From assembly GCA_030268105.1 (NCBI GenBank), contig BSDZ01000094.1:901001-965000 (forward strand): a stretch of DNA of 64,000 nt, in the 5' to 3' direction. The DNA comes from Volvox africanus. Its lineage: Eukaryota > Chlorophyta > Chlorophyceae > Chlamydomonadales > Volvocaceae. The notes under the pieces were generated by a model, which was given only the letters and a program-made list of their open reading frames with translations, ran no database searches and was not told the DNA's origin. Each line of letters starts with the position of its first letter. Position 1 is the stretch's first letter. Positions 8,040 through 44,874 of this stretch are shown piece after piece. A program made the translations under genes and the position numbers.

Positions 8040-8043
8040 AATT

Positions 8044-8056: not shown

Positions 8057-8107
8057 AGGTTAATTCACGATGACTGTATTGCCCTTCGTCAGAAGTAGGT
8101 TCTCGCG

Positions 8108-8418: not shown

Positions 8419-8506
8419 GTACGCGGATAGTCCCAAAATTCCTGTTACGTTACGTTACTCTCAGTTGTTCAGTAAATTCCTGTCTTGCTGATTAAGCTCG
8501 TGCGTC

Positions 8507-13764: not shown

Positions 13765-14579
13765 TGTTGTATGCGGACTCGATCACCGTTTACATTCATG
13801 AAGTCCGCGATGCATTTAAACATCATAATGCATAATACAAATATATTAGCATGATATACTCGAGTATATCTAGCTAATCAGGCATGTCGCATTATCATCT
13901 ACGACATCGCGCTGTCGGTCAACATGTTTGACTCGAAGCTGATAATTAATGCGCGATCTGTCCATTGGCATATTATACCGCGTAATAATACTTTAAATGT
14001 TATTACCCAATTTACGTCACAAACCATACGCATATGTGAGAAGGCGACAATCGCGATGGTTGGGTCGGCAACCGAATATTGATATTCGGACCCTTGCATA
14101 ATGCATGCGTTGCATTTAATAATATCACGGATGATACGATATTTAGAGCAGTGTTGGCAAGGTACTCACACTTGAGATCGCAATCCAGTGAGACCTGTAC
14201 TGCATTCCGATATCACGACGTGATAGGTGCGAGGACGGCCGCCTAGAGACCGAAGTCGGCGCGACGCTAACTTTGGACTAGGTTCCCGAGTACTTAACTC
14301 TAATCAATACGCATACATACGATATAATCACTTATATTCGGCCTGAGCTATTCCAGCACGCCATCTGCAGCCGAGTGATGAACATTGCCCACGGGGTCTG
14401 ACGGCAGACTTAAATCCTGTAATTGAAGAACATTGTAAGTTGAATCTTTCCTTGTCATTGAGTCTTCCGCTGTCTGATATCTGCATTAGATTGCCTTGCT
14501 GTTCGTAAGCTTGGTTCGCACACAGCTAACACCCAGACGTGCAGAGCTAGTGCATGATACGAGAAGGAAGGATACAACA
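13765..14579 (+). mobile_element. array LTR 2 (copy of Y 5' LTR)
   Basis: 815 bp, TGTTGTATGCGG to GGATACAACA. It shares aggttcccgagtactt and agtgttggcaagg with the LTRs at 19076, 24387 and 29698, whereas the terminal LTR at 43127 has aagtacccgagtactt and agtgttgtcaagg. All four are therefore copies of one 5' LTR. Hairpins lie at 13853-13870, 13982-14006, 14072-14089 and 14165-14192. Confidence 0.92.
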
Positions 14580-14583
14580 AATT

Positions 14584-14596
14584 TGGTAGCGAGACG
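14584..14596 (+). promoter_or_regulatory. primer-binding site of array unit 2
   Basis: tggtagcgagacg four bases after the LTR. The same site recurs at 19895, 25206 and 30517 in the other units. Confidence 0.6.
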
Positions 14597-15015
14597 GTTC
14601 GATTTACGGCTGTCTCATCGTTGCTGCTGAAGATTAGATCCTCGCACGATCAATCGGCGGCGAAGAGTGTCATGAGGTAACTTCGTCGGAAAGTTGATCT
14701 TGCTTTTCCTCTTTTAAAAGCTTACGATATCACATCAACTCATTAGATATTGCCTATAAGTGTGTTTATTGTGAGATCCTAAACTGCAAAGACAATTTCT
14801 GTTACCATCCTACTTGAAGTCGCTTTTGCACAAAGGTTGGATTTTGAATAAGTTCCGCTACGGAAGAGACATCGTTTTGGAAGTGACAACGTACTGGTGG
14901 ATTACATTACCGTCTACGCCGGAGTGCTTTTCGAGCGAGTAACGATAGACGACGGGAAGCCTTTAAGGTATAGTCTTACCTTGTCGTTATCCTGGTGAGG
15001 CTTTAATTGAGGTAC
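14597..15015 (+). other. untranslated leader of array unit 2
   Basis: About 420 bp between the primer-binding site and gag, repeated in each unit at +5311. It shows no recognisable counterpart of the spliced leader peptide seen in elements H, F and B. Confidence 0.6.
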
Positions 15016-16293
15016 ATGTCGCATAATCAACATTCTCCAAACATGGAAGAGGGCGAACGGGTCAATACTGATGCTTGCAATAAGGAACCGAAGTCTCCAC
15101 TGATTACTGACAATTCACATAATTCTCAGCTCGATGCTCCCCAGTTGGTTGAATCTAATCCCATTCAGATTCCCGAGGGTACATCAAATCACGTATTATT
15201 CTCCGAAAGGGAAGAGGACGTGGCAATGGTGTCGCTGCAACAACTTATGGATGGAGGGTTCCCCGGTTTCGTCGTTCCAACGCCTCAATTTCATATCCCT
15301 CCCGCTGTGGAGCCCAAGACTATCGCAAACGCTGCCCGTGCCTATGTCCGCGACGCTAAAAGATATCTAAAGTTGGTAAAAGGTGGTGATCGCGACGACG
15401 TGAAGTGTCTTTTCATCGGGGCCACATTGAACGACGCCGCGCGGGAATGGTATGACCTTTGGACTACTGTACATGAGCCTTTTACGTTTGAGGAATTAAC
15501 TAATGCACTCCTTGATCGTTTTGCTCCCGGAAATCAATCACAAGTGGCTGCCATGTACCGAGAATTACACGCAGGTACTCATCGAATGCGACCCGGCGAA
15601 TCGGTGGAGGATTATCGGTTGCGGTTCGAGGGTCTGACAGCACCCATGATTGGTTTTTCAGAAGCGGACTATATTTATTGGTTCCAACGTGGTATTTCAC
15701 TACAGCTGGCTAGAGCTAGCATTATGGATCCGACACTGGAAGAGACAACGTCGTATACGCAATGGGTTCAGATTGTCTGAGGCGCCGAAGTTCGCCTCAG
15801 GATGGGACAAGAACGTCCGGCATTATTAGCGCCATTATCAGTGGATACGACGCGAGATGCCTCCAATGATACTGATCCAACACCTGAGACTACTGGCGGT
15901 CCGTTACCACCGGCTTCTGTGTACCAGAATGGTACCCCATTGATCAGTCATGTACAGAATCCCGGCAACCAAGAAGCAAGCCTACGAGATTCACAAGTAA
16001 TTGGGAACGTACGCAAGAAGAGGGGTATGTCACAAAATACCGTTGCATCACGGGGAGTCATATCGGCATCAAAGCGATCAAAGACGGACAATCGATGGCT
16101 TGCCAAATGGGGATGCACTCAGACGGAGTTGGCACAACGACGACATCTGGGAGTCTGTTTTCGCTGCGCATCAGACCATCTTACCAGGAACTGTCCACTT
16201 TTACCCCCGTTTGTCCCTGCGGAACTACGACCAGTGAACGAAGTACAGGATACGATTTCTGTTGAGGTAACCGAACCGCCTAAGTCGCGTTGA
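15016..16293 (+). pseudogene. gag: gag of array unit 2, one in-frame stop
   Basis: The first ATG of the frame is 15016. The capsid domain carries RAYVRDAKRYL, FIGATLNDAAREWYDLW, LLDRFAPG and YWFQRG. A TGA at 15778-15780 interrupts the frame just before GAEVRL. In H the same place reads R-GAEVR, so the stop probably came from a CGA codon by CpG deamination. After it the same frame runs through a basic linker to the knuckle CFRCASDHLTRNC (CX2CX3HX4C). Gag is clearly homologous to that of H but much diverged, so Y is a distinct subfamily. The same stop is present in all four units. Confidence 0.85.
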
Positions 16294-17133
16294 TCAGGAA
16301 CTAGTACCCGATAAGGGATTAGACACTATGTGCTGTCCGCGACTAGTCCTAACTTTGCCACCGTTGATTAAATGACCTGATGGTTAGTAAATATGCGTCC
16401 TTTACAAGTTTTCTCGATGGAGTGGCATAAGACGCAGGAGCATAGTGGACGGCCACTACGCTTAACTCTTTTAATGACGATGAAGTCATTTTCGTTTATC
16501 AAGATTTAAGACACCCATATATTGGAGGTGTTATTGACGACCTTATTGCCGTTGTGAAGAGTGATAAGTATGGTGGAGTCGACTCCACAGTCGTCTGATT
16601 GCGTCAGGTTACTCTCGCTAATGAGAGTAAGCATCCCATCGTGGGCAGAATCCCCTTTAGTCGTCGAAGGACCCTTTGTGTGTTAGGGCCCAATGGGTGC
16701 AACGAAGTCTCTCGGAGACAGCACTATATAAACATTGGGTGCCGCGACATCACGACAGTACCGCGCGCGCACCGATATGGAGTCCAGCACAATTGGCCGT
16801 TGTGCAATAGGGAACCTATCGCCTAAGGTACCTTGTCTGTCGTAACTATATGTCACACCAAAGGAGGGCGGAACTGTTGCGGAGCCTATGGTTAATTTCG
16901 GCGTTCGTCCGCCGACATAAAGAACCCAAGCTTGGAGGGTGTAATATAATCCTATCAATGATAAGGGAAAACATCCATGAATTGCTTGTGAGGCCTTGGG
17001 TGCAATCAATTGCTACCACCGTGCAGTCTCTTGCGAAGATTCTGAGGTCGCAGCCCCCTAATACTTAATTAAATTGATGCATATGTCATCCTGGGGCTTC
17101 CACCTATGTTCCCTGCTGAATTAAGATCCCTTC
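16294..17133 (+). pseudogene. decayed protease region of array unit 2
   Basis: About 840 bp with no long frame. Pieces match the region just downstream of the H protease active site (for example KHPIVGRI near 16630 and the stretch around the casein-like EGGTVAEP string near 16865), but in several frames. No DTGA motif remains and the methyltransferase-like domain is not recognisable. The identical decay in units 2-5 shows that Y was defective before it was multiplied. Confidence 0.75.
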
Positions 17134-19075
17134 TTGTGTTCGAGCACAACCCGTTTCATAACCTATGTACAGGGTAACATTGCTATCGTAGAGCGGATGA
17201 AGCGGCAAGTGAGGGATCTGCTCGCAAAGGGTATGATTCGGCCCAGCACATCGCTATTTTCCGCATCGATATTGTTTGTCGGTAAGAAGGATGGGACGTT
17301 GCGTATGTGTATTGATTGAAGGGGCTTGAATGCAACTACGATTGAAACTCGCTACCCTTTGCCGCGCGTCGATGACCTGTTCGATAAGCTGAAAGGCTTA
17401 ACTTCTTTTTCCTCGATTGACCTTCAACAAGGGTATAATCAGATACGCATCGTTGCCTCTGATAGTCCGAAAACCGCTTTCCAGACTCCCTTTGGTCACT
17501 TCGAGTACCCGGTCTTGTCAGTTGGACTTACTAATGCGCCCGCCACATTTCAAGCAATGATGGATTGCATGTTCAGACCGTATATCGACAGGTTCATCGT
17601 TTGCTATTTGGATGATATTTTGATCTATTCCAAAACGCGCGAGGAGCATCTGAAGCATCTCGAGCTCGTGCTTGAGGTGATGAAGCGGGAGCAACTGTTT
17701 GCTAAACGCGCCAAGTGCTTTTGGGCGCAGCCGCAAGTGGAGTATTTGGGCCACATCGTGTCGGCCACTGGGGTCAGGATGGACCCACGGAAGGTAGCTG
17801 TGGTTCGCGAATGGCCCGCGCCTCAGAACCTCACCGAACTATGTCAGTTCTTGGGTTTGACTAACTACTTCCGTAAGTTTATTAAGAATTACTCCATTAT
17901 TGCGGCCCCGCTTACGAATTTGACGAAGAAAGGAGGTTTCGTTTCTCTTGAATCCTGGACACCCGCGTGTCAGCGGGCATTCGAAGAGCTCAAACGAATT
18001 GTCGCCGACGACGTTACCCTCTCTTTTCCTGACTACTCGTTGCCTTTCCACATTGAAGTTGTATTGGATGCTTCCTTGCATGGAAGCGGCGCTGTATTGT
18101 TACAGGAAGGACGACCGATCCCCTTCACGAGTAAGAAGTTTTTGGGTGCGGAGGCCCGATATACAACTGGAGAGCAGGAGCTGTTGGCAGCTCTACATGC
18201 TTTGAAAGAATGGCGCTGTTACCTCGAGGGCCGCCCTTTTACACTGAAGACTGATCATAAGCCGCTGACATTCTTGCAGAGTGTCCCTACGCTTAACCGA
18301 CGACAAGCTCGATGGATGGAGAATCTATCTCGTTTCGACTGCACGTGGGAGTATATCGCCGGCAGGATTAATATTGCTGACGCCCTCAGTCGACATCCCT
18401 CATTGCATGCTGCTATTTTGGCAGCACCAGTCACTCGCTTGCGCAGTCAGGAGGTGCCGATCGCAACGGACCTTGCGCAGCGCCTCAAGGCGGCATATGA
18501 AGTGGATCCATGGTTCGCTTCACCCAACAATGTGGAACATTTGCAGAAGCGCAACGATTTGTGGATACGGCAGGATGGCTCGGCCACACAAATCGTCGTG
18601 CCCAACGACGACGCTTTACGCTACGATATTCTTGCACGGTTCCACGAGGACCCGTTAGCAGGACATCCTGGAAGCACGTGATTGGCAGAGCTTGTACGAC
18701 GCTCATTCTGGTGGCCGCGCGTGGTGAAGGATGCGGAAAACTTCGTGCAAAGGTGCAGTTTATGTCAGCGCAATAAAGCACTATCCGGTAAGGGCCAGGG
18801 TTTATTACAACCTTTACCTATACCCGATGCCCCTTGGGAAAGTGTCTCTATGGACTTCGTAGTCGCGCTGCCCAAAACTGAGGGGGGATACGACTCGGTG
18901 TTCGTAATGGTCGATCGTTTGACCAAGATGGTTCATTTAGCCCCCTGCACCTCGTCTTGCACCGCTGAGCAAACAGCACGATTATTTTTTGATAATGTGG
19001 TCCGATTGCATGGCGTTCCTAAAAATGTGATATCCGATCGCGGCGGGCAATTCACGTCTAAGTTTTGGGAAGCGC
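17134..19075 (+). pseudogene. pol: pol of array unit 2: RT, RNase H, partial integrase
   Basis: One frame broken by TGA at 17317-17319, in the conserved CIDY-RGLN box of the RT, and by TGA at 18679-18681 (CGA in units 1 and 4). RT to RNase H is otherwise full length, with YLDDILIYSK. The 5' part is Y-type (KLKGLTSFSS, VLSVGL, QAMMD); from DCMFRPYIDRF onward it matches H, including FHIEV, IPFTSKKFLG and WMENLS. The Y-to-H switch therefore lies within about 20 bp near 17555. It shares TELCQ with unit 5, so the mosaic is not a single clean crossover. It ends at AAGCGC where the next LTR starts. Confidence 0.85.
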
Positions 19076-19890
19076 TGTTGTATGCGGACTCGATCACCGT
19101 TTACATTCATGAAGTCCGCGATGCATTTAAACATCATAATGCATAATACAAATATATTAGCATGATATACTCGAGTATATCTAGCTAATCAGGCATGTCG
19201 CATTATCATCTACGACATCGCGCTGTCGGTCAACATGTTTGACTCGAAGCTGATAATTAATGCGCGATCTGTCCATTGGCATATTATACCGCGTAATAAT
19301 ACTTTAAATGTTATTACCCAATTTACGTCACAAACCATACGCGTATGTGAGAAGGCGACAATCGCGATGGTTGGGTCGGCAACCGAATATTGATATTCGG
19401 ACCCTTGCATAATGCATGCGTTGCATTTAATAATATCACGGATGATACGATATTTAGAGCAGTGTTGGCAAGGTACTCACACTTGAGATCGCAATCCAGT
19501 GAGACCTGTACTGCATTCCGATATCACGACGTGATAGGTGCGAGGACGGCCGCCTAGAGACCAAAGTCGGCGCGACGCTAACTTTGGACTAGGTTCCCGA
19601 GTACTTAACTCTAATCAATACGCATACATACGATATAATCACTTATATTCGGCCTGAGCTATTCCAGCACGCCATCTGCAGCCGAGTGATGAACATTGCC
19701 CACGGGGTCTGACGGCAGACTTAAATCCTGTAATTGAAGAACATTGTAAGTTGAATCTTTCCTTGTCATTGAGTCTTCCGCTGTCTGATATCTGCATTAG
19801 ATTGCCTTGCTGTTCGTAAGCTTGGTTCGCACACAGCTAACACCCAGACGTGCAGAGCTAGTGCATGATACGAGAAGGAAGGATACAACA
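19076..19890 (+). mobile_element. array LTR 3
   Basis: Exactly 5311 bp after LTR 2, 815 bp, nearly identical; one visible private change is accaaagtcgg for accgaagtcgg, shared with LTRs 4 and 5. Confidence 0.92.
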
Positions 19891-20326
19891 AATTTGGTAG
19901 CGAGACGGTTCGATTTACGGCTGTCTCATCGTTGCTGCTGAAGATTAGATCCTCGCACGATCAATCGGCGGCGAAGAGTGTCATGAGGTAACTTCGTCGG
20001 AAAGTTGATCTTGCTTTTCCTCTTTTAAAAGCTTACGATATCACATCAACTCATTAGATATTGCCTATAAGTGTGTTTATTGTGAGATCCTAAACTGCAA
20101 AGACAATTTCTGTTACCATCCTACTTGAAGTCGCTTTTGCACAAAGGTTGGATTTTGAATAAGTTCCGCTACGGAAGAGACATCGTTTTGGAAGTGACAA
20201 CGTACTGGTGGATTACATTACCGTCTACGCCGGAGTGCTTTTCGAGCGAGTAACGATAGACGACGGGAAGCCTTTAAGGTATAGTCTTACCTTGTCGTTA
20301 TCCTGGTGAGGCTTTAATTGAGGTAC
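19891..20326 (+). other. untranslated leader of array unit 3
   Basis: Copy of the unit 2 leader at +5311, including the primer-binding site at 19895-19907. Confidence 0.6.
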
Positions 20327-21604
20327 ATGTCGCATAATCAACATTCTCCAAACATGGAAGAGGGCGAACGGGTCAATACTGATGCTTGCAATAAGGAACC
20401 GAAGTCTCCACTGATTACTGACAATTCACATAATTCTCAGCTCGATGCTCCCCAGTTGGTTGAATCTAATCCCATTCAGATTCCCGAGGGTACATCAAAT
20501 CACGTATTATTCTCCGAAAGGGAAGAGGACGTGGCAATGGTGTCGCTGCAACAACTTATGGATGGAGGGTTCCCCGGTTTCGTCGTTCCAACGCCTCAAT
20601 TTCATATCCCTCCCGCTGTGGAGCCCAAGACTATCGCAAACGCTGCCCGTGCCTATGTCCGCGACGCTAAAAGATATCTAAAGTTGGTAAAAGGTGGTGA
20701 TCGCGACGACGTGAAGTGTCTTTTCATCGGGGCCACATTGAACGACGCCGCGCGGGAATGGTATGACCTTTGGACTACTGTACATGAGCCTTTTACGTTT
20801 GAGGAATTAACTAATGCACTCCTTGATCGTTTTGCTCCCGGAAATCAATCACAAGTGGCTGCCATGTACCGAGAATTACACGCAGGTACTCATCGAATGC
20901 GACCCGGCGAATCGGTGGAGGATTATCGGTTGCGGTTCGAGGGTCTGACAGCACCCATGATTGGTTTTTCAGAAGCGGACTATATTTATTGGTTCCAACG
21001 TGGTATTTCACTACAGCTGGCTAGAGCTAGCATTATGGATCCGACACTGGAAGAGACAACGTCGTATACGCAATGGGTTCAGATTGTCTGAGGCGCCGAA
21101 GTTCGCCTCAGGATGGGACAAGAACGTCCGGCATTATTAGCGCCATTATCAGTGGATACGACGCGAGATGCCTCCAATGATACTGATCCAACACCTGAGA
21201 CTACTGGCGGTCCGTTACCACCGGCTTCTGTGTACCAGAATGGTACCCCATTGATCAGTCATGTACAGAATCCCGGCAACCAAGAAGCAAGCCTACGAGA
21301 TTCACAAGTAATTGGGAACGTACGCAAGAAGAGGGGTATGTCACAAAATACCGTTGCATCACGGGGAGTCATATCGGCATCAAAGCGATCAAAGACGGAC
21401 AATCGATGGCTTGCCAAATGGGGATGCACTCAGACGGAGTTGGCACAACGACGACATCTGGGAGTCTGTTTTCGCTGCGCATCAGACCATCTTACCAGGA
21501 ACTGTCCACTTTTACCCCCGTTTGTCCCTGCGGAACTACGACCAGTGAACGAAGTACAGGATACGATTTCTGTTGAGGTAACCGAACCGCCTAAGTCGCG
21601 TTGA
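20327..21604 (+). pseudogene. gag: gag of array unit 3, one in-frame stop
   Basis: Protein identical to unit 2 as read by eye, with the same TGA (21089-21091) before GAEVRL. Confidence 0.85.
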
Positions 21605-22444
21605 TCAGGAACTAGTACCCGATAAGGGATTAGACACTATGTGCTGTCCGCGACTAGTCCTAACTTTGCCACCGTTGATTAAATGACCTGATGGTTAGTA
21701 AATATGCGTCCTTTACAAGTTTTCTCGATGGAGTGGCATAAGACGCAGGAGCATAGTGGACGGCCACTACGCTTAACTCTTTTAATGATGATGAAGTCAT
21801 TTTCGTTTATCAAGATTTAAGACACCCATATATTGGAGGTGTTATTGACGACCTTATTGCCGTTGTGAAGAGTGATAAGTATGGTGGAGTCGACTCCACA
21901 GTCGTCTGATTGCGTCAGGTTACTCTCGCTAATGAGAGTAAGCATCCCATCGTGGGCAGAATCCCCTTTAGTCGTCGAAGGACCCTTTGTGTGTTAGGGC
22001 CCAATGGGTGCAACGAAGTCTCTCGGAGACAGCACTATATAAACATTGGGTGCCGCGACATCACGACAGTACCGCGCGCGCACCGATATGGAGTCCAGCA
22101 CAATTGGCCGTTGTGCAATAGGGAACCTATCGCCTAAGGTACCTTGTCTGTCGTAACTATATGTCACACCAAAGGAGGGCGGAACTGTTGCGGAGCCTAT
22201 GGTTAATTTCGGCGTTCGTCCGCCGACATAAAGAACCCAAGCTTGGAGGGTGTAATATAATCCTATCAATGATAAGGGAAAACATCCATGAATTGCTTGT
22301 GAGGCCTTGGGTGCAATCGATTGCTACCACCGTGCAGTCTCTTGCGAAGATTCTGAGGTCGCAGCCCCCTAATACTTAATTAAATTGATGCATATGTCAT
22401 CCTGGGGCTTCCACCTATGTTCCCTGCTGAATTAAGATCCCTTC
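21605..22444 (+). pseudogene. decayed protease region of array unit 3
   Basis: Same frame breaks as unit 2; a few single-base differences such as aatgatgatg for aatgacgatg near 21785. Confidence 0.75.
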
Positions 22445-24386
22445 TTGTGTTCGAGCACAACCCGTTTCATAACCTATGTACAGGGTAACATTGCTATCGT
22501 AGAGCGGATGAAGCGGCAAGTGAGGGATCTGCTCGCAAAGGGTATGATTCGGCCCAGCACATCGCTATTTTCCGCATCGATATTGTTTGTCGGTAAGAAG
22601 GATGGGACGTTGCGTATGTGTATTGATTGAAGGGGCTTGAATGCGACTACGATTGAAACTCGCTACCCTTTGCCGCGCGTCGATGACCTGTTCGATAAGC
22701 TGAAAGGCTTAACTTCTTTTTCCTCGATTGACCTTCAACAAGGGTATAATCAGATACGCATCGTTGCCTCTGATAGTCCGAAAACCGCTTTCCAGACTCC
22801 CTTTGGTCACTTCGAGTACCCGGTCTTGTCAGTTGGACTTACTAATGCGCCCGCCACATTTCAAGCAATGATGGATCGCATGTTCAGACCGTATATCGAC
22901 AGGTGCATCGTTTGTTACTTGGATGATATTTTGATCTATTCCAAAACGCGTGAGGAGCATCTGAAGCATCTCGAGCTCGTGCTTGAGGTGATGAAGCGGG
23001 AGCAACTGTTTGCTAAACGCGCCAAGTGCTTTTGGGCGCAGCCGCAAGTGGAGTATTTGGGCCACATCGTGTCGGCCACTGGGGTCAGGATGGACCCACG
23101 GAAGGTAGCTGTGGTTCGCGAATGGCCCGCGCCTCAGAACCTCACCGAACTACGTCAGTTCTTGGGTTTGACTAACTACTTCCGTAAGTTTATTAAGAAT
23201 TACTCCATTATTGCGGCCCCGCTTACGAATTTGACGAAGAAAGGAGGTTTCGTTTCTCTTGAAGCCTGGACACCCGCGTGTCAGCGGGCATTCGAAGAGC
23301 TCAAACGAATTGTCGCCGACGACGTTACCCTCTCTTTTCCTGACTACTCGTTGCCTTTCCACATTGAAGTTGTATCGGATGCTTCCTTGCATGGAAGCGG
23401 CGCTGTATTGTTACAGGAAGGACGACCGATCCCCTTCACGAGTAAGAAGTTTTTGGGTGCGGAGGCCCGATATACAACTGGAGAGCAGGAGCTGTTGGCA
23501 GCTCTACATGCTTTGAAAGAATGGCGCTGTTACCTCGAGGGCCGCCCTTTTACACTGAAGACTGATCATAAGCCGCTGACATTCTTGCAGAGTGTCCCTA
23601 CGCTTAACCGACGACAAGCTCGATGGATGGAGAATCTATCTCGTTTCGACTGCACGTGGGAGTATATCGCCGGCAGGATTAATATTGCTGACGCCCTCAG
23701 TCGACATCCCTCATTGCATGCTGCTATTTTGGCAGCACCAGTCACTCGCTCGCGCAGTCAGGAGGTGCCGATCGCAACGGACCTTGCGCAGCGCCTCAAG
23801 GCGGCATATGAAGTGGATCCATGGTTCGCTTCACCCAACAATGTGGAACATTTGCAGAAGCGCAACGATTTGTGGATACGGCAGGATGGCTCGGCCACAC
23901 AAATCGTCGTGCCCAACGACGACGCTTTACGCTATGATATTCTTGCACGGTTCCACGAGGACCCGTTAGCAGGACATCCTGGAAGCACACGATTGGCAGA
24001 GCTTGTACGACGCTCATTCTGGTGGCCGCGCGTGGTGAAGGATGCGGAAAACTTCGTGCAAAGGTGCAGTTTATGTCAGCGCAATAAAGCACTATCCGGT
24101 AAGGGCCAGGGTTTATTACAACCTTTACCTATACCCGATGCCCCTTGGGAAAGTGTCTCTATGGACTTCGTAGTCGCGCTGCCCAAAACTGAGGGGGGAT
24201 ACGACTCGGTGTTCGTAATGGTCGATCGTTTGACCAAGATGGTTCATTTAGCTCCCTGCACCTCGTCTTGCACCGCTGAGCAAACAGCACGATTATTTTT
24301 TGATAATGTGGTCCGATTGCATGGCGTTCCTAAAAATGTGATATCCGATCGCGGCGGGCAATTCACGTCTAAGTTTTGGGAAGCGC
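22445..24386 (+). pseudogene. pol: pol of array unit 3: RT, RNase H, partial integrase
   Basis: Same RT stop as unit 2 (TGA 22628-22630); the rest is open to AAGCGC. Unlike unit 2 it keeps the Y haplotype DRMFRPYIDRC, then changes to H-type residues (FHIEV, IPFTSKKFLG, WMENLS). Its Y-to-H switch is therefore further downstream, between about 22925 and 23355. Confidence 0.85.
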
Positions 24387-34538: not shown

Positions 34539-35361
34539 TGTTGTGCTACGGTTCATTTTCCGCCGACGCGTAGGTCGACGCGATCCTACTAGGTGAAGTG
34601 CTTTTGTGATGAACGCATTACATATGAATGAATCTGCATTATATAAATGTATTCGTATACATTTATATATGCATTTAGCATGGCATCATTATCCATCGCG
34701 ACATCGTATCATGGCAAATCCGCCTAGCATGCATGAATGCCCGAAGCATTAAAGTGCGCAGTATGCTCGTGTTACGAAACAATAAGTAATATTATTCGAT
34801 ATAATATTACTTCATTACAGCACACGCTGAGAGCGCCGCACTCGTCGCGATGCATGCCCTGCAACCGGATATCGTTATCCGGACCCTTGCATCATGCGAA
34901 TGCCGGAAAGGCTTATACGTTGTTATGCGTAGACATCGCCTATACGCAGTAGGGTTGTCACATCTAGGATCGGCCTCCTAATGTGAATCGTACAGCACTG
35001 CAATGCTGCCAGTATAACAGATGCGAGGACGGCTAAGCTAGACGAGACATTCGATACCGGAGAACACTCGTGTGTTCTACATCATAATTGTTATACACAT
35101 TTCTACTTAGCCCGAGCTAAGCCTGAACTTCGCTAATCACCGCCGCGTGATGATTGCTTGCTTCCGGCGCTGACGGCGATTTCGTCCATTGCATCATTCC
35201 GATCTGAAGACTGTAAGTTCTATCTCTCTTCGTCTTGAAGTCTTCTGCTGTCTCTGTTTGCTCGCGCTTGCCTTGCTGTACTTGCAAGTGCTCGCGCATC
35301 GGTGTCGATAATCTCCAGATGTGCAGATACTTATGAGCAAACGCGAACGAGAGGTACAACA
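34539..35361 (+). mobile_element. 5' LTR of element B (823 bp)
   Basis: TGTTGTGCTACGG to GAGAGGTACAACA. It shares only termini and short motifs (TGCGAGGACGGC, acccttgcat) with family A LTRs, but the same order of hairpins: 34645-34664, 34784-34812, 34865-34882, 34958-34986, 35061-35078. A GTAAGT site at 35213-35218 is placed as in family A. Confidence 0.92.
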
Positions 35362-35363
35362 AA

Positions 35364-35376
35364 TTGGTAGCGAGAC
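35364..35376 (+). promoter_or_regulatory. primer-binding site of element B
   Basis: tggtagcgagacc shortly after the LTR end, the same class of site as in family A. Confidence 0.65.
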
Positions 35377-35429
35377 CAGGTTCGTTGCCTAACTGTCTCT
35401 CTTTGTCTAATCGGAAGTAGGTTCTTTCT

Positions 35430-35741
35430 ATGGCGAGTTCCAGCGACGAACCACGAGGACCGCTAGACACTTTTGCCAAAGACCTAGGTCGCGCCGTTTT
35501 GGATGCCGCCGCTTCCGGTTTGTAATTGTTTAATTGCTTTTGCTTAGATTGCTGCACTTGTTGTGTAAGTGTACGCTCTGAGTCGCAGGTAATCTCAGTG
35601 CACCGGCATTGCTTGCCGCGGCGACTGAGACCGGCTTTCGTCCGGACCAGTTGGCGACTCTCATTGCCCAAACTACGGAGATCAGGACTCAGCTGGGCAA
35701 GTACTTGCTGAGTTTACTGGATCTTCTCAAGAGTACCGTCG
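35430..35741 (+). CDS. spliced leader peptide upstream of gag (element B)
   Basis: Exon 1 is 35430-35517 (88 nt, as in H), intron 35518-35588 (71 bp, gt...gtcgcag), exon 2 35589-35741, then a gtaggc donor. The joined peptide shares PLDTFAxDLGRAVLDAAASG and QTTEI with H, with many silent or conservative DNA differences. After the second donor the proteins of B and H no longer match. This supports real splicing and selection on the peptide. Product role unknown. Confidence 0.6.
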
Positions 35742-35828
35742 GTAGGCTCACCGAATCGCTTTGTACTCTTGCTTTTGCGATAGAAGTCGGCTTCTATTAC
35801 GCAAACCTAGGGTATCGCTTCGTGTTCC

Positions 35829-37058
35829 ATGTCTGCGGAGCACACCGATACGCCGCACACTAGCTTAGCAAGCCAGCCCGATTTTGCTGTGACTGCTAGA
35901 GCTTCAGGGCTTGAGACTGTTGGCACGCGAGCCACTCAAGAGTCCCTTACTTTCCAGACCCCTGCTCACTTAATTGTGCCGCATTCAGCAGTTAACACCA
36001 ATATGGACAACACTGCTGGACCAAGGGTTCTGCCATTACCTCAAGCTCGAGGGCATGATGACATCCCTGAGGTGATGAGATTGACGATTCCCGTTCCTAG
36101 GCTTAATATTTCGCTGACCGACAAGACACCAGGGCATGACATAGCCGATGCAACTCGTGCGTACGTGCGTGACGCAAAATTGTACCTCCAAGCTGTCCAT
36201 GGTGGCGACAATGACGGTATCAAGTGCCTTTTCGTTGGTAACACCCTCGAGGGCTCAGCGAAGGACTGGTATCGCAATTGGACTAACGCCCGTGGTCGCT
36301 ATACTTTTGACGAGTTGACCGCCGCCCTGCTCTCACGATTCGCTACTGCGGTTCAAGCACGTGATGTGGAAGCTCGTAATGCTTTGGCAGCCGGTAGCTA
36401 CCACATGCGACGGGACGAAAATGTACCTGCGTACCAGTCACGCTTCGAAGCACTTGTGACTCCCATTGCTGACCTCACCGAATCTGAGCGTGTCTTTTGG
36501 TTTAGGCGAGGCCTAACGAAACTTTTGGCTAAATGGTGTGCTACTGACTTGGTTGGAGCGCAGATCAAGTCGTATGACGCTTTAGTCGCTTTTGCTAAGG
36601 GTGCGGAGATACGAATTCTTGCCGGCGAGGAAGAAGTCAAGTCTGCCCCTCGTGCAAATAACGTGCAAGTGCAGGATCCGCTTGGGGAAGCTGTAGCTCT
36701 CGACCAGGACCTCGGCGCGACACGCCCCACGCCTACTGCCGCGACGCGACGCAGTCACGGGCAACGCAAGGCGCACGGGGGCGCTAGCTCGGGTGTCCGT
36801 GGTACAGGAGGAGCAGGTCCGAGCTCGGACTCAGCTAGGAACAGGAAGCGTGGTGGTGCGCCGTCGTCGGCAGCCGCACAGCGTTCCGACCCCAACGCAA
36901 AGCGCACTCGTACGGACGACACATTCATGCCAAAATGGAATTGCAATCGTTCCGAGTTCGAACGTCGGAAAGCGGCCAATGTTTGTCTACTGTGCGCGGA
37001 GAGTCATCCTACGAAGGATTGCCCGTTACTGCCGCCGTTTGTACCTCAGCCGAAATAG
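35829..37058 (+). CDS. gag: Gag of element B
   Basis: 409 codons, intact. The same domain order as H gag: N-terminal variable part with ETVGTR and QTPAHLIVP, capsid domain (RAYVRDAKLYL, FVGNTLEGSAKDWY, LLSRFAT, YQSRFEAL, WFRRGL), basic linker, and knuckle CLLCAESHPTKDC (CX2CX3HX4C). It ends in TAG followed by ggg, with the downstream frame open in the same phase. Confidence 0.9.
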   Translation: MSAEHTDTPHTSLASQPDFAVTARASGLETVGTRATQESLTFQTPAHLIVPHSAVNTNMDNTAGPRVLPLPQARGHDDIPEVMRLTIPVPRLNISLTDKTPGHDIADATRAYVRDAKLYLQAVHGGDNDGIKCLFVGNTLEGSAKDWYRNWTNARGRYTFDELTAALLSRFATAVQARDVEARNALAAGSYHMRRDENVPAYQSRFEALVTPIADLTESERVFWFRRGLTKLLAKWCATDLVGAQIKSYDALVAFAKGAEIRILAGEEEVKSAPRANNVQVQDPLGEAVALDQDLGATRPTPTAATRRSHGQRKAHGGASSGVRGTGGAGPSSDSARNRKRGGAPSSAAAQRSDPNAKRTRTDDTFMPKWNCNRSEFERRKAANVCLLCAESHPTKDCPLLPPFVPQPK

Positions 37059-37845
37059 GGGCTTGCCCGGGTTCCTGCGGAGGGGGCTCTACCTGGGTTT
37101 TCTGAACTAACGCGTGGTCGGTGGTCATCCTTACGGCCAGCCGTTAAGGCATTGTTGCCTTGTGTACTCGGACACATCGAGCGAGTCATTGCGCGACGCG
37201 TCACGCTTGACGGACGCACGGGACTTCTCTGCTTCGATCCGTTGTGTAATTTGTTTACACCTCGCCGTCCCCTGTCGTCTATCGATCTGTCCAACCACGT
37301 GGTTTTGTTTATCCCCTCGTCTCTGCGTGAGATGTCGGAACAGTTGGCCATATACAGGAGGTGTAGGCGTCAATATCCAGGCACTGCCGCGTGTGTATTA
37401 CTCCCTGCTTTCTGTCGGCGCAAGGCAGAGGCATCGCTAAGGGGTATGCGGCATGTCCACCGGTTCGTGCCGGGCAGAGGTGAACGCGCTGGGGTTGTCC
37501 CCAGAGTCGTCTGATTGTCCACAGGTTACCCTTGCTGACGGGGGTAAGCATCCCATCGTGGGCAGGATTACCCTTAGCCTATCGATAGGCCCTTTGCGTG
37601 TTGTGACCCGGCCGTACGTGCTGCAGGGCTTGGCAGAGACTGCACCGTACATTATGGGGTCCTCGACATTACGACAGTACCGCGCGCGCATCGACATGGA
37701 GACCGCAACCCTGCATTTGTGCAAGGGTACTCTGTCGATTAAGGTACCTTTCCTGTCGTTCGAATATGTCGCACCAAAGGAGGGCGAAAATGAGGCGGTG
37801 CCTATGGTTAATTTCGCTGTGACCGCAATGGCCGCGCGAATCTAA
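37059..37845 (+). pseudogene. Pol N-terminal part of element B: methyltransferase-like domain, protease active site deleted
   Basis: In frame with gag after its TAG, the methyltransferase-like domain runs to about 37470 (TLDGRTG, CNLFTP, FIPSS at 37311-37322, GTAACVLLPAF). Near 37480 the sequence jumps to the part downstream of the protease active site (ALGLSPESSDC). About 250 bp present in H are missing, with the DTGA motif, and the frame changes. A second frame from 37453 carries the rest of the protease domain to a stop at 37845. Element B therefore cannot make its own active protease. Confidence 0.8.
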
Positions 37846-37878
37846 CCAGAGCTAGTCGGGCGTAAGGAGGCCATCCGT

Positions 37879-40800
37879 TTGTTACGGAAGGGCGCGCACG
37901 GACTGCTTTTAAGGCTGCGGGTGAGCTGTTGTGTCACCACCGCGCAGATTTCTGCGGATCCTGAGGTCGAGGCCCTACTGTCGCAGTATGAGGACGTCTT
38001 TAAAGATATCCCTGGCCTACCACCTATGCGTCCTGTTGATCATACAATCCCTCTCGTGCCTGGAGCGCAGCCTACGGCCCGGCCAATGTACAGGTTGAGT
38101 CCATTGGAGTTGGACGAGGTGAAGCGCCAGGTGACGGATTTACTCGCGAAGGGTATGATACGCCCCAGCACATCCCCGTATTCTGCACCGATTTTGTTTG
38201 TCGGTAAGAAGGATGGGACCTTGCGCATGTGCATCGATTACCGGGGTTTAAATGCGAATACGGTGAAAAATTGCTACCCTTTGCCACGCGTCGACGACCT
38301 GTTGGATAAGCTGAAGGGCTCGGCTTATTTTTCCTCAATTGACTTACAACAGGGCTACAATCAGATTCGCATCGCTGCCTCTGATATCCCGAAAACCGCT
38401 TTTCGGACGCCCTTCGGTCACTTTGAGTATACGGTCCTATCATTTGGTTTGACTAATGCCCCTGCAACGTTTCAGGCGGTTATGGACCGAATGTTTAGGC
38501 CGTTTATCGACAGGTTCGTTGTGTGCTACCTGGATGACATCTTGGTGTACTCTAAGACGCGCGAGGAGCACTTGGAGCATCTTCGACTCGTGCTCGACGT
38601 TATGAGGCGGGAGCAATTGTTTGCTAAACGCGCCAAATGCTTTTGGGCGCAGCCTCAGGTGGAATATTTGGGTCACATTGTGTCGGCCACCGGTGTGAAG
38701 ATGGACCCGCGGAAGGTCGCCGTGGTTCGCGATTGGCCCGTGCCTCAGAACCTCACGGAGCTGCGTAAGTTCCTTGGCTTGACCAATTATTTCCGAAAGT
38801 TCATTGAAAAATATTCCATCATTGCGGCCCCGCTTACTAACTTAATTCGCAAAGGCGTGTTCGTTTCGCTCGAGTCGTGGACGTCGCAATGCCAGCGGGC
38901 ATTTGAAGAGCTCAAACGAATTGTAGCTGAAGATGTCACCCTCGCATTTCCTGATTACTCGTTGCCATTCCGTGTTGAGGTAGTGTCTGATGCCTCAATA
39001 TTTGGAAGTGGCGCTGTATTGTTACAGGAAGGGCGACCGATCGCCTTCACGAGTAAGAAGTTTTCTGGTGCGGAGATTCGCTACACCACCGGGGAACAGG
39101 AGCTTCTGGCAGTGCTGCATGCTTTAAAGGAATGGCGCTGTTACCTCGAGGGCCGCCCATTTACTTTAAAAACTGACCACAAGCCCCTAACGTTTTTGCA
39201 AATCGTTCCTACGTTGAACCGCCGTCAAGCTAGATGGATGGAATATCTAGCTAGGTTCGACTGCACCTGGGAGTATATTTCTGGTAAACTTAATATTGCC
39301 GATGCTCTCAGTCGACATCCGTCGCTACACGCTGCAATTTTGGCAGCGCCCGTCGTGCGGCCGCGTAGCGAGGAGGTACCGATCGCGACGGACCTCACGG
39401 AGCGGTTGAAGGTTGCCTACAACGCAGACGCTTGGTTCGCGGACCCGGCTAATGTAGAAAACCTTCGCAAGCAGAATAGCTTCTGGCTACGGACAGAGGG
39501 TGCAGCTACACAAATCGTCGTTCCGAACGACGACGCGCTACGCTACGACATCCTTGCGCGGTTCCACGAGGACCCGTTAGCAGGACACCCTGGTAGCAAG
39601 CGATTGATCGACTTGGTGCAACGTTCCTTCTGGTGGCCTCGTTTGGCTAAGGATGCGGCGAACTTCGTCCAGACATGCAGTCTGTGCCAGCGCAATAAGG
39701 CTTTGTCCGGTAAGGGCCATGGGTTGTTGCAACCGTTGCCTGTCCCGGATGCGCCTTGGGAAAGTGTTTCCATGGACTTCGTAGTCGCGCTGCCCAAAAC
39801 TGAGGGGGGATACGATGCGGTGTTCGTAATGGTCGATCGTCTGACTAAGATGGTTCACCTCGCACCATGCACATCATCCTGCACGGCTGAGCAAACCGCA
39901 CGCTTGTTTTTCGACAATGTGGTTCGGTTACACGGGGTTCCTAAAAATGTGATCTCGGATCGCGGTGGCCAGTTCACGTCCAAGTTTTGGGAAGCGCTCT
40001 GCAAGCTAGTTGGCATGCGCGTCAACCTGAGCACGGCGTATCACCCGCAGACCGATGGTCAAACCGAACGCACAAATCGCACGTTGGGTGATATGTTGCG
40101 CAATTATGCTGGTCGCACACCACTCGTTTGGGATACGTATTTGACTGCGGCAGAATTCGCGCTTAACAACGCTGTTAACCGCTCCACAGGCAAAAGTCCG
40201 TTCTTTCTCAACTATGGATTTCATCCCGCGCTACCCGTGTGGCGTGAGTTGGAAGTGAACGTGCCTGCTGCTAAACTTTTTGCCAAGTCTTTTATGTCCC
40301 GAATCACAGACGCGAAGTCGTGTTTGGACGCGGCGCAGCAACGAACGACGGAATACTACAACAAATCCAAACAGGATGTGACGTTTTCGGAAGGGCAACT
40401 CGTGTTGCTAAGCACCAAGAACTTGCGTTCCTTGGCTGACGGATCCCGAAAACTCTTACCCCGCTGGATTGGTCCGTATCCTGTTGTGCGCATGGTCGGG
40501 AATGTGGCTGTGGAGCTTGCATTGCCCGCTGATATGACCATTCACCCCACGTTTCACGTATCGCTTGTCCGCCCGTATCGTGGTACGGAACCCGTCCCTG
40601 AGCCTACTAACGCCCCCGCAGCGATCGAACCAGTTCCCGAGACCTGGATCGCTGGTAAACAGAAGTTTTACGATGTGGAGCGGGTGTTAGATTATCGCGC
40701 GCGTCGTGTGGGCCGACACCGACGTAAGCGGACAGTACACGAGTACTTGGTCAAGTGGACAGGGTATACCGACGAGCACAACTCATGGGAACCGGCACGC

Positions 40801-40908
40801 AACTTCTCACAGGACATGAAGCCCGCGAACGTGCAGCACAAACCCAATGATCCCTGCAGTCGATGCTGTACGATGCAGCGAGGACGCTGCATACGGGAGG
40901 GGGGATAA
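37879..40908 (+). CDS. pol: Pol of element B: RT, RNase H, integrase, chromodomain
   Basis: 1009 open codons. RT has [19 protein letters not shown] and [10 protein letters not shown] near residue 217. RNase H has VVSDAS near 369 and TDHKPL near 432. The integrase HHCC domain lies at about 558-615, with MDFVVALP near 632, ISDRGGQF near 692 and [10 protein letters not shown] near 729, so D, D and E are all present. A GPY/F module (RWIGPYPVV) lies near 858, and a chromodomain ([23 protein letters not shown]) near 930-975, thought to guide insertion by binding modified histones. The last about 28 residues are out of frame relative to element C because about 16 bases are missing after MKP. The frame probably begins further upstream; the chosen start is only the first start in the open frame. 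Confidence 0.92.
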
Positions 40909-40909
40909 T
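40896..40909 (+). promoter_or_regulatory. polypurine tract of element B
   Basis: gggaggggggataa run directly before the 3' LTR, the primer site for plus-strand synthesis. Confidence 0.75.
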
Positions 40910-41732
40910 TGTTGTGCTATGGTTCATTTTCCGCCGACGCGTAGGTCGACGTGATCCTACTAGGCGAAGTGCTTTTGTGATGAACGCATTACATATGAAT
41001 GAATCTGCATTATATAAATGTATTCGTATACATTTATATATGCATTTAGCATGGCATCATTATCCATCGCGACATCGTATCATGGCAAATCCGCCTAGCA
41101 TGCATGAATGCCCGAAGCATTAAAGTGCGCAGTATGCTCGTGCTACGAAACGATAAGTAATATTATTCGATATAATATTACTTCATTACAGCACACGCTG
41201 AGAGCGCCGCACTCGTCGCGATGCATGCCCTGCAACCGGATATCGTTATCCGGACCCTTGCATCATGCGAATGCCGGAAAGGCTTATACGTTGTTATGCG
41301 TAGACATCACCTATACGCAGTAGGGTTGTCACATCTAGGATCGGCCTCCTAATGTGAATCGTACGGCACTGCGATGCTGCGAGTATAACAGATGCGAGGA
41401 CGGCTAAGCTAGACGAGACATTCGATACCGGAGAACACTCGTGTGTTCTACATCATAATTGTTATACGCATTTCTACTTAGCCCGAGCTAAGCCTGAACT
41501 TCGCTAATCACCGCCGCGTGATGATTGCTTGCTTCCGGCGCTGACGGCGATTTCGTCCATTGCATCATTCCGATCTGAAGACTGTAAGTTCTATCTCTCT
41601 TCGTCTTGAAGTCTTCCGCTGTCTCGGTTTGCTCGCGCTTGCCTTGCTGTACTTGCAAGTGCTCGCGCATCGGTGTCGATAATCTCCAGATGTGCAGATA
41701 ATTATGAGCAAACGCGAACGAGAGGTACAACA
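40910..41732 (+). mobile_element. 3' LTR of element B (823 bp)
   Basis: Same length as the 5' LTR. By eye about 14 differences, around nine of them C/T or G/A at CpG. CCCAA follows. Confidence 0.92.
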
Positions 41733-41737
41733 CCCAA

Positions 41738-43067
41738 TGACGACGCTTTACGCTACGATATTCTTGCACGGTTCCACGAGGACCCGTTAGCAGGACATCC
41801 TGGAAGCACGTGATTGGCAGAGCTGGTACGACGCTCATTCTGGTGGCCGCGCGTGGTGAAGGATGCGGAAAATTTCGTGCAAAGGTGCAGTCTATGTCAG
41901 CGCAATAAAGCACTATCCGGTAAGGGCCAGGGTTTATTACAACCTTTACCTATACCCGATTCCCCTTGGGAAAGTGTCTCTATGGACTTCGTAGTCGCGC
42001 TGCCCAAAACTGAAGGGGGATACGACTCGGTGTTCGTAATGGTCGATCGCTTGACCAAGATGGTTCATTTAGCCCCCTGCACCTCGTCTTGCACCGCTGA
42101 GCAAACAGCACGACTATTTTTTGATAATGTGGTCCGATTGCATGGCGTTCCTAAAAATGTGATATCCGATCGCGGCGGGCAATTCACGTCTAATTTTGGG
42201 AAGCGCTATGTCAACTCGTCGGTATGCGCGTTCATTTGAGCACAGCATATCATCCACAGTCCGATGGGCAAACCGAACGCACAAATCGCACACTAGGCGA
42301 CATGTTGAGGAATTTCGCGGGACGCACACCCTCTGTTTGGGATACGTTTCTGACTTCGGCAGAATTCGCGCTTAACAACGCTGTTAATCGCTCCACAGGT
42401 CAAAGCCCTTTCTTTATGAATTATGGATTCCATCCTGCGCTACCCATGTGGCGAGAGTTGGAGATAAATATCCCTGCGGCTAAAACCTTTGCCAAGTCGT
42501 TCCTATCCCGCATGACAGATGCGAAGGCACGCAGCACAACAACGGACAACGGACTATTATAATAAATCCAAACGGGACGTGACATTTTCGGTGGGACAAA
42601 TGGTATTATTGAGCACTAAGAACTTGCGTTCGCTCGCTGACGGTTCCCCTAAATTGTTACCTCGCTGGATCGGTCCGTATCCCGTTGTTCGCATGGTAGG
42701 GAATGTAGCTGTGGAGTTATCCCTACCTTCTAACATGAATATCCACCCCACATTTCATATTTCTTTAATCCGCCCTTATCGCGGCACAGTACCCGTTGCA
42801 AACGACACCGATGCCCCTGCAGTAATGGACCCCGGTCCCGAGACCTGGATCGCAGGCAAGCAAAAGGTGTATGATGTGGAACGCATTTTGGATGATCGGG
42901 TTCGTCGCATTGGTCGACAATGACGAAAGCGGAAGGTGCATGAGTATCTGGTCAAGTGGACTGGCTATTCGAGCGAGCATAATTTGTGGGAGCCGATGCA
43001 TAACTTCTCGCCGGAAATGAAGCCCTTACTGGAGGAAGCTCGCCTACGTGCCACACAAACCCAATGA
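41738..43067 (+). pseudogene. pol: pol 3' part of the last Y unit (integrase, chromodomain)
   Basis: Resumes after the B insertion. TGA at 41811-41813 (CGA in units 1 and 4), a one-base loss near 42192 just before FWEAL, a deletion near 42525 and a TGA near 42921 break the frame. It keeps the integrase Glu motif ([10 protein letters not shown]), GPY/F and the chromodomain (EYLVKWTGY), which units 2-4 lack. Confidence 0.85.
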
Positions 43068-43111
43068 TCCTTGCAGTTGATGCTGTTCGATGCAGCGAGG
43101 ACGCTGCATAC

Positions 43112-43126
43112 TGGAAGGGGGATAGT
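43112..43126 (+). promoter_or_regulatory. polypurine tract of element Y
   Basis: tggaagggggatagt directly before the terminal LTR. Confidence 0.7.
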
Positions 43127-43941
43127 TGTTGTATGCGGATTCGATCACCGTTTACATTCATGAAGGCCGCGATGCATTTAAACATCATAATGCATAATAC
43201 AAATATATTAGCATGATATACTCGAGTATATCTAGCTAATCAGGCATGTCGCATTATCATCCACGACATCGCGCTGTCGGTCAACATGTTTGACTCGAAG
43301 CTGATAATTAATGCGCGATCTATCCATTGGCATATTATACCGCATAATAATACTTTAAATGTTATTACCCAATTTACGTCACAAACCATACGCGTATGCA
43401 AGAAGGCGACGATCGCGATGGTTGGGTCGGCAACCGAATATTGATATTTGGACCCTTGCATATTGCATGCGTTGCATTTAATAATATCACGGATGATACG
43501 ATATTTAGAGCAGTGTTGTCAAGGTACTCACACTTGAGATCGCAATCCAGTGAGACCTGTACTGCATTCCGATATCGCGACGTGATAGGTGCGAGGACGG
43601 CCGCCTAGAGACCGAAGTCGGCACGACGCTAACTTTGGACTAAGTACCCGAGTACTTAACTCTAATCAATACGCATACATACGATATAATCACTTATATT
43701 CGGCCTGAGCTATTCCAGCACGCCATCTGCAGCCGAGTGATGAACATTGCCCACGGGGTCTGACGGCAGACTTAAATCCTGTAATTGAAGAACATTGTAA
43801 GTTGGATCTTTCCTTGTCATTGAGTCTTCCGCTGTCTGATATCTGCATTAGATTGCCTTGCTGTTCGTAAGCTTGGTTCGCACACAGCTAACACCCAGAC
43901 GTGCAGAGCTAGTGCATGATACGAGAAGGAAGGATACAACA
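43127..43941 (+). mobile_element. 3' LTR of element Y (array LTR 6)
   Basis: 815 bp. It differs from LTRs 2-5 at shared positions (aagtacccgagtactt, agtgttgtcaagg), as expected for the original 3' LTR. AGCGC follows, the target duplication shared with 13760-13764. Confidence 0.93.
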
Positions 43942-44815: not shown

Positions 44816-44858
44816 CCCTTGCAGTTGATGCTGTTCGATGCAGCAAGGACGCTGCATA

Positions 44859-44874
44859 CGGGAAGGGGGATAGT
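44859..44874 (+). promoter_or_regulatory. polypurine tract of element H
   Basis: cgggaagggggatagt just before the H 3' LTR. Confidence 0.7.

Follow-up and report, generated by a model that had tools for sequence, protein, structure and literature searches.

A row of chimeric LTR-retrotransposon units was found in the 64,000-nucleotide stretch of Volvox africanus DNA analyzed here (the window), where a Ty3/gypsy chromovirus (Y) is nested in a relative (H). Each of three 5311-bp units starts with the LTR of Y and ends at the base of H where Y entered. The founding event was very probably a homologous exchange between the pol of the host element and the pol of the element nested inside it. The overall observation, first made in an initial annotation of this DNA, was confirmed, with several of its details revised below.

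Layout of the nested elements

Y, H and a third element, Z, are Ty3/gypsy chromoviruses. Pfam matched seven of the eight ORFs scanned, with Retrotrans_gag, RVT_1, RT_RNaseH, Integrase_H2C2 and rve domains and a pol order of RT-RH-INT; only ORF 15802-16293 had no Pfam match. A Chromo domain was detected at the integrase C terminus in ORF 37879-40908 of Z and in ORF 43916-44815 of H-right. The LTRs have TG...CA ends, a polypurine tract precedes the 3' LTR in Y (43113), H (44861) and Z (40896), and 5-bp target duplications flank Y (AGCGC) and Z (CCCAA), while the ends of H are damaged. Y lies in the integrase of H, to which it is about 95% identical, and is bracketed by a single AGCGC duplication (13760-13764 and 43942-43946), just as the initial annotation had it. 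That annotation also described the last unit as Y throughout; the remainder of Y is indeed present, but it is interrupted at 34539-41732 by the 7.2-kb element Z, which had gone unmentioned and whose own LTRs differ at 13 of 823 positions. Coordinates of all features are given in Table 1.

Table 1. Features of the nested elements and the tandem array (window coordinates except where stated).
Feature	Position	Strand	Remarks
LTR, maybe the 5' LTR of H (tentative)	7225..8039	+	Y-family LTR, 95%; assignment to H from position and orientation only
Solo LTR, Y family, reversed within H	10983..11799	-	Target duplication CTGTT
H-left: host pol (RT, RNase H, integrase H2C2 and core) left of Y	11810..13764	+	Period-5311 match with later units; Pfam on ORF 11775-13835
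Founding breakpoint interval, units 2 and 3	12297..12738 (H coordinates)	+	Narrows to 12510-12530 when CpG sites are relied on
AGCGC target-site duplication, left copy	13760..13764	.	Repeated where every unit ends
Unit 1: LTR, gag and pol from Y, followed by H pol	13765..19075	+	As early as 12255-12296 (H coordinates) it has H bases, from a conversion patch or a displaced switch
Unit 2: chimera, Y then H	19076..24386	+	
Unit 3: chimera, Y then H	24387..29697	+	
Last Y copy, left arm (LTR, gag, pol)	29698..34538	+	
Element Z within Y pol	34539..41732	+	LTRs 34539-35361 and 40910-41732; target duplication CCCAA; Pfam on ORFs 35829-37058 and 37879-40908
Last Y copy, right arm, to polypurine tract (43113)	41738..43126	+	
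3' LTR of Y	43127..43941	+	
H-right: remaining H integrase region, SH3, chromodomain	43942..44874	+	Polypurine tract 44861; AGCGC right copy 43942-43946
3' LTR of H, truncated	44875..45477	+	

Units, period and borders of the array

LTRs start at 13765, 19076, 24387 and 29698, and the exact 5311-bp period noted earlier was borne out; three units precede the last copy of Y, making a row of four, a copy number taken from one assembly. The period equals the homologous distance from H to Y: counted as far as the counterpart of H 13764, the arms of Y sum to 5310 bp (4841 + 469), and one base missing in Y to the right of the switch brings the total to 5311. A 32-base sequence spanning the H|LTR junction was found at exactly four places in the 141-Mb assembly (≤3 mismatches), all of them in this array. 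A 14-base polypurine motif matched only at 40896 (Z), 43113 (Y) and 44861 (H) on the + strand with ≤2 mismatches, and under these settings it was absent from the units, which upholds the initial annotation in its view that the inner units end at the base of Y entry and not at a polypurine tract.

Unequal exchange between LTRs, which yields units of one LTR plus the whole internal region, is a model that has been offered for tandem elements in einkorn (PMC10447253), for Cassandra alongside template switching (PMC7215508) and for rice alongside the insertion of ready-made tandems (PMC11899658). The units of the present array are 5311 bp long, against 7045 bp for the two arms of Y, their right halves match H instead of Y, and H sequence running up to the insertion base closes each of them. 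Because no unit carries a polypurine tract and each switches from Y to H, LTR-LTR exchange is excluded as the founding step, as the initial annotation had argued, and we give it a negligible probability in that role; LTR pairing may still have aided later changes in copy number.

Ungapped pairwise comparison of the units gives 5-18 differences over 5311 positions and no indels, a likeness far beyond chance. Such long near-identical repeats are hard to assemble, the copy number rests on one assembly and the same cluster holds another near-perfect duplication, so a simple nested pair misassembled as repeats has to be weighed. The units have no indels among them, however, and the chimeric junctions would require a real molecule. 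Furthermore, in the region shared by all four copies every one of the 11 differences is a transition, and 10 of the 11 touch CpG, compared with 12.8% of positions (514/4014; chance about 1e-8), a bias that resembles decay and is unlike sequencing error. An assembly artefact is accordingly regarded as improbable, though less so than exchange between LTRs. Independent insertions at one site were also tested as a source of the row and rejected.

The switch from Y to H sequence

Base-by-base scoring used 76 sites that distinguish H from Y, with positions given in H coordinates. In units 2 and 3, all 37 sites up to 12509 have the Y base and 35 of the 39 sites after it the H base, whereas unit 1 carries Y bases at 32 of 32 sites up to 12246 and H bases at 38 of 44 thereafter. 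This mapping, which the initial annotation had called for as a check, shows each of the three inner units to be Y on its left and H on its right, as had been claimed, but the switch in unit 1 is unlike that of units 2 and 3 and is either displaced or patched. Seven sites break the pattern, namely 12509 and 12531 (in unit 1), 12655, 13129, 13239, 13245 and 13368, and all are CpG transitions; at 12655, 13239 and 13245 the change is present in H-left alone among the seven rows, and site 13129 puts units 2 and 3 with Y. The narrow founding breakpoint in units 2 and 3 holds only if the CpG sites 12509 and 12531 are trusted, and the wider interval applies otherwise. In unit 1, H bases at 12255-12296 are followed by Y bases at 12509 and 12531, so that a single clean switch fits this unit only together with conversion or with CpG changes that recurred. 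H and Y share their two longest identical stretches at 12297-12508 (212 bp) and 12532-12651 (120 bp), and these meet at the switch; identical runs in the right piece reach up to 79 bp.

The source of each half was also examined across the assembly. The right halves of the units differ from H-left at 4-6 of 1075 positions, and among the places scored H-left is their closest match outside the array, the best other place reaching 97% (40 of 2103 candidates scored). For the left half, the last Y copy is closest among the genome places scored. A point against is an element at C91:1251876 with 99% likeness to the left half, although its match stops at unit position 4210. The other comparisons support H-left as one partner of the founding exchange and the left arm of the last Y copy as the other. 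The array has a junction at matching positions of direct repeats together with a switch of variants, as in a homologous duplication, in unit 1 with a patch.

A non-homologous tandem duplication at microhomology, happening to span the insertion point and followed by conversion, was also weighed as an origin, and such an event apparently did occur in the same cluster (C91:1124685-1139870). In the present array, period and H-Y homologous distance agree to the single base, and the junction falls within pol sequence that is about 94% identical in H and Y instead of lacking extended homology; by rough estimate, random ends would fit about once per thousands of tries. We consider this origin as improbable as a founding exchange between LTRs.

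LTR comparisons

The four array LTRs differ among themselves at 0-3 of 815 positions and from the LTR at 43127 at 17-18 of 815, in agreement with the initial annotation; the bases it took as private to the array are mostly shared, as an element some 150 kb away has the array base at 10 of 16 fixed differences. Where the 5' LTR of Y differs from its 3' LTR, the bases involved segregate elsewhere in the family, a poor fit to a simple insertion with equal LTRs, and one of the Y LTRs may have been converted. Dating of Y from its LTRs was dropped for this reason, and the possibility of conversion makes LTR ages doubtful, including that of Z.

Search for further cases nearby

Eleven LTR queries were used to scan 264 kb of C91 (881001-1145000), and 71 LTR copies or pieces were recovered, of which 56 have a 5' edge and 59 have a 3' edge. 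The closest family members are clustered locally, with clusters on C91, C117 and C20. An outer 5' flank is repeated only in this array and in the duplication at C91:1124685-1139870, which consists of two 7592-bp copies with two differences, includes an LTR and its flank, and has a junction without direct homology and with a 2-base overlap (AC). Across these 264 kb the nested route was not seen a second time. Two LTRs spaced 5.5 kb from each other (C91:1102522 and 1108077) were considered as a second array, but their flanks differ and they represent two insertions, one within the other. Separately, a pair of copies ending at C91:1088730 and 1116144 share an outer 3' flank and belong to a roughly 97% duplication 27.4 kb apart.

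Proposed origin of the array

The single AGCGC duplication and the resumption of H to the right of Y show that Y entered the integrase gene of H in the same orientation. The host pol left of the insertion and the pol of Y then formed a direct repeat with a spacing of 5311 bp, and homologous exchange between the two pols very probably duplicated the intervening stretch, yielding a unit that is Y at its start and H at its insertion-point end, as the informative sites and the period indicate. The initial annotation had specified a crossover between the H and Y pols; the exchange between these partners is supported, and crossover itself is a plausible pathway for it. The same sequence would result from a crossover, whether sister chromatids or homologues took part, from break-induced copying or from reinsertion of an excised circle. 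In the circle route, exchange within one chromatid would excise a 5311-bp Y-H circle with one LTR, possibly a multimer, which would reinsert by homology; insertion of a rolling-circle product has been named as one possible route of tandem growth (PMC3648361), and the few differences among the units would suit a burst. No sequence feature favours the circle or break-induced copying over crossover, and reinsertion of a circle takes two steps. We regard these two pathways, which are part of the same best explanation, as a minority possibility, well above the rivals discussed earlier.

After the founding homologous exchange, later exchange or copying between the long identical units presumably produced three units and a full Y, with local conversion. 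Z probably resided in Y before this amplification, judging from the divergence of its LTRs, and was not copied because it lies to the right of the exchange. Lacking a polypurine tract and the 3' part of Y, the units are probably not mobile by themselves.

Relation to known tandem retroelements

The initial annotation knew of no named description of this route, a hint that proves too strong, as there are precedents both for nested insertions, suggested as a source of maize CRM tandem repeats (PMC3648361), and for unequal crossing-over between homologous transposable elements, a published general model (PMC12628747). CRM1TR and CRM4TR of the maize centromeric retrotransposons are likewise Ty3/gypsy-derived tandem repeats, but their units consist of part of the LTR plus UTR, and illegitimate recombination with gene conversion is proposed for them (PMC3648361); in the 5.3-kb unit described here, which spans gag and pol, the homologous breakpoint has been located. 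In tandem LTR-retrotransposons of rice and other plants, too, a single target duplication encloses several LTRs and internal regions (PMC11899658). Their units are LTR-retrotransposon copies with common LTRs, and nested insertion is ruled out at the described locus and the route left undecided, whereas our units are chimeras ending at the insertion point. The Wong and Choo model of unequal crossing-over (NAHR) similarly has exchange between homologous family copies duplicating part of an element (PMC12628747); here the two copies form a nest, so that the duplicated piece fuses both and its border is the insertion junction. The double-insertion model (McGurk and Barbash 2018, as given in PMC12628747) also draws array-seeding direct repeats from a second insertion, but at the same target site by way of the target duplication, while here the second copy sits inside the coding region of the first. 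Zepp clusters of Coccomyxa (as given in PMC8226300) are likewise green-algal retroelements nesting in their own kind in local clusters; Zepp is a LINE, and its tandem appearance is put down to successive insertions truncated at the 5' end and not to recombination (PMC8226300). The maize case in PMC2686159 is a gene cluster and not an array of this sort. A search without most subscription journals found no description of a mapped exchange between a host element and the element nested in it, and the array appears to be a well-resolved variant of a known process and a little-documented start for tandem rows.

How tandem LTR-retrotransposon arrays begin is an open point, left undecided in the rice study (PMC11899658). 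In this array the founding exchange can be followed at the level of single bases: it is positioned at the longest identical runs, and the unit border is set by the insertion point. Its signature, a repeated outer flank of the LTR combined with a switch from inner to outer element, is searchable in any long-read genome. A same-orientation chromovirus in the pol of a relative supplies a ready-made direct repeat, and self-nesting might conceivably be a general generator of long-period arrays, a tentative extension that we hold doubtful. If true, self-nesting clusters should keep seeding chimeric arrays bounded by insertion points, raw material of centromere-like repeats.

Structure of the array

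Positions are those of the window, which is C91:901001-965000; C91, C117 and C20 are contigs of one assembly (141 Mb, 126 contigs). The elements are chromoviruses of the Ty3/gypsy type. The host element H contains a single insertion of Y, a relative about 95% alike, in its integrase. AGCGC flanks both sides of the insert between the H pol parts (13764/43942), both copies being present as the initial annotation had reported. The insert consists of three inner copies (units 1-3) and a terminal copy (last Y), interrupted by a further element, Z. LTR starts at 13765, 19076, 24387 and 29698 keep the previously noted 5311-bp period exactly.

Features of the array and its host element
Feature	Position	Strand	TSD	Remark
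Solo LTR in H	10983-11799	reverse	CTGTT	
H pol, left part	11810-13764			resumes at 43942
Unit 1	13765-19075			
Unit 2	19076-24386			
Unit 3	24387-29697			
Last Y	29698-43941			interrupted by Z
Element Z within last Y	34539-41732		CCCAA	
LTRs of Z	34539-35361 and 40910-41732			13/823 differ
3' LTR of Y	43127-43941			

The last unit had been described as Y throughout; that description left Z unnamed. The arms sum to 7045 bp, and an uninterrupted Y relative (C91:1286501-1294000) measures 7047 bp between LTR ends. Seven of eight scanned open frames match gag, RT, RNase H, integrase, SH3 or chromodomain families, in line with the chromovirus type, and the frame at 15802-16293 has no family match. 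When the RT-RNase H frame of unit 1 was compared with known proteins, ranks 1-5 of the 120 listed matches belonged to Volvox africanus and rank 7 to V. reticuliferus; the best (V. africanus) has 84% identity over 82% of the query. A volvocine alga is accordingly the most likely host.

Elsewhere in the window, the 882-bp LTRs of a different element, W (54558-55439 and 61168-62049), are 100% identical, and W is for this reason probably a very recent insertion. At 7225-8452, a Y-type LTR (7225-8039) overlaps, then runs into, sequence (7924-8452) that matches the W LTR in its 3' part, which hints at a recombinant element.

Chimeric units and the Y-to-H switch

The initial annotation claimed that the array was founded by exchange between H pol and the nested Y pol. 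Aligned rows were H left of the insertion (H-left), units 1-3, last Y, a Y relative (S) and the minus-strand window element 51962-53841. All 76 ungapped H-left/last Y differences in 11887-13764 were used (H coordinates; the left piece contributes 67 and the right piece 9). The count omits the stretch 11810-11886 because of the excessive divergence of H-left (at all variable columns displayed there, the units carry the Y state) and also one gap site, 13751, with units 1-3 in the H state. The expected switch was recovered base by base: through 12509, units 2 and 3 match Y at 37/37 sites, and beyond it they match H at 35/39; unit 1 matches Y at 32/32 sites through 12246 and H at 38/44 beyond. All seven sites that break the pattern (12655, 13129, 13239 and 13245 in units 2 and 3; 12509, 12531, 12655, 13239, 13245 and 13368 in unit 1) are CpG transitions in at least one copy, and among the aligned rows the changes at 12655, 13239 and 13245 are in H-left only.

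If CpG sites are trusted, the breakpoint of units 2 and 3 lies in 12510-12530; the safe interval is 12297-12738, because 12509, 12531 and 12689 are also CpG sites. The breakpoint is homologous. It falls where the longest and second-longest stretches of H/Y identity (12297-12508, 212 bp, and 12532-12651, 120 bp) adjoin each other; in the right piece, identical runs do not exceed 79 bp. Unit 1 carries H bases at 12255-12296, where 3/4 sites are non-CpG, a patch attributable either to conversion from the neighbouring H-left, as we infer, or to a second exchange.

The halves of the units have matching sources. For the 1075-bp right half of unit 2 (40 of 2103 candidates scored), the best matches are the other units and H-left, which differs from the unit right halves at 4 to 6 of 1075 positions, and the next-best place is at 97%. 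For the left half (623 bp; 40 of 1497 candidates scored), they are the units and last Y, with H-left at 94% and one other element, C91:1251876, at 99%; the match of the latter ends at unit position 4210.

Mechanism of amplification

Homologous exchange predicts a period equal to the distance, before duplication, from a base of H-left to its Y counterpart. In the last Y, the left arm contributes 4841 bp to this distance and the right arm 469 bp (41738-42206); adding base 13751, which is missing from Y right of the switch, gives the observed 5311. Exchange between LTRs predicts whole-element units. As first proposed, the inner units end at the H base where Y entered and not at a polypurine tract: a search of the assembly for the 32-base H|LTR junction (≤3 mismatches) gives exactly 4 hits, all within the array. 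The 14-base polypurine motif is exact at 43113, 44861 and, reversed, 51035, and with ≤2 mismatches on the plus strand occurs additionally only at 40896; as these positions all fall elsewhere, units 1-3 contain none.

The founding act would have been a crossover between sister chromatids or homologues. Circle reinsertion or break-induced copying could take its place, the product being identical in sequence to that of crossover. Following the founding crossover, the array would have grown by exchange between units, and the units are presumably immobile.

Age and apparent decay

Pairwise differences between units number 5 to 18 over 5311 sites; against the shared part of Y (4055 sites), the counts are 5 (unit 3), 8 (unit 2) and 12 (unit 1). 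In the four-copy region minus the unit-1 patch, 11/11 variable sites are transitions; in the region common to H-left and units 1-3, 10/11 are transitions and one a transversion, and 9/11 touch CpG. Because the unit differences are nearly all CpG transitions (10/11 four-copy sites, against 514/4014 positions, 12.8%, touching CpG), the sequence suggests that the array is cytosine-methylated, and the differences appear to resemble decay of methylated DNA rather than sequencing error. Z probably predates the amplification, since its LTRs differ more (1.6%) than the units do.

The four array LTRs stand as copies of one LTR, as they differ mutually at only 0 to 3 of 815 positions. They do differ from the terminal LTR (17 to 18 of 815); the accompanying claim of private bases largely failed, with only 3/16 fixed differences private among 13 LTR rows and the array base present at 10/16 in the element C91:1077850-1085080. 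Because the differing bases recur in other family members, divergence of the Y LTRs is no clean clock, and one of them (43127-43941 or 13765-14579) may have been converted by another element.

Relation to published models

In the sections drawn on here, Sharma et al. (2013; PMC3648361) hold an origin of CRM tandem repeats from nested insertions possible and propose illegitimate recombination with gene conversion, and tandem LTR elements are described as common in rice, their route undecided (Morales-Diaz et al., 2025; PMC11899658). A review (PMC12628747) covers TE-TE unequal crossing-over as well as successive insertions into a single site, 61 tandem RLG_Cereba structures in einkorn are attributed to LTR recombination (PMC10447253), and the relevant part of PMC7004042 gives no account of nesting. 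Against this background, the array is an instance of an established process, homologous exchange within a family, but in a variant that sets host against nested copy; the literature searched for prior accounts yielded no description of that exchange.

The surrounding cluster

A scan of 264 kb of C91 found 71 LTR copies or pieces and one further duplication in which an LTR and its outer 5' flank recur (C91:1124685-1139870; two tandem copies, period 7592, 2 differences), whose LTR-bearing element has TSD GGGAA. Its junction has a 2-base overlap (AC) and no direct homology, so tandem duplications in the cluster seem to arise in more than one way; fold-back may have been involved, as the left flank repeats part of the unit in inverted orientation at 95% identity. 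An unamplified, same-orientation nested Y-family pair (C91:1098563-1108891; 98.6% alike over 4.77 kb) is a possible precursor state.

Two stretches 27.4 kb apart (C91:1087150-1090260 and 1114525-1117685; ~97% alike), each with an LTR whose outer 3' flank is common to both, represent a larger duplication within the cluster. Left of the cluster's first Y-family LTR match lies a tandem duplication of ~7.7 kb (C91:881001-895495; 99.4-99.7% alike), which itself contains a short tandem repeat.

Of 1465 candidate matches to the Y LTR, the 40 with the best scores cluster on three contigs: C91 (0.91-1.33 Mb), C117 (0.25-0.40 Mb) and C20 (1.13-1.19 Mb). Many other contigs carry sequences more distantly related to the internal region. 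For V. carteri, the relevant section of one study reported no ZeppL elements, the centromere repeat being unsettled at that time (PMC8226300). The three Y LTR clusters could point to centromeres or to some other region of low recombination, for instance a mating-type locus.
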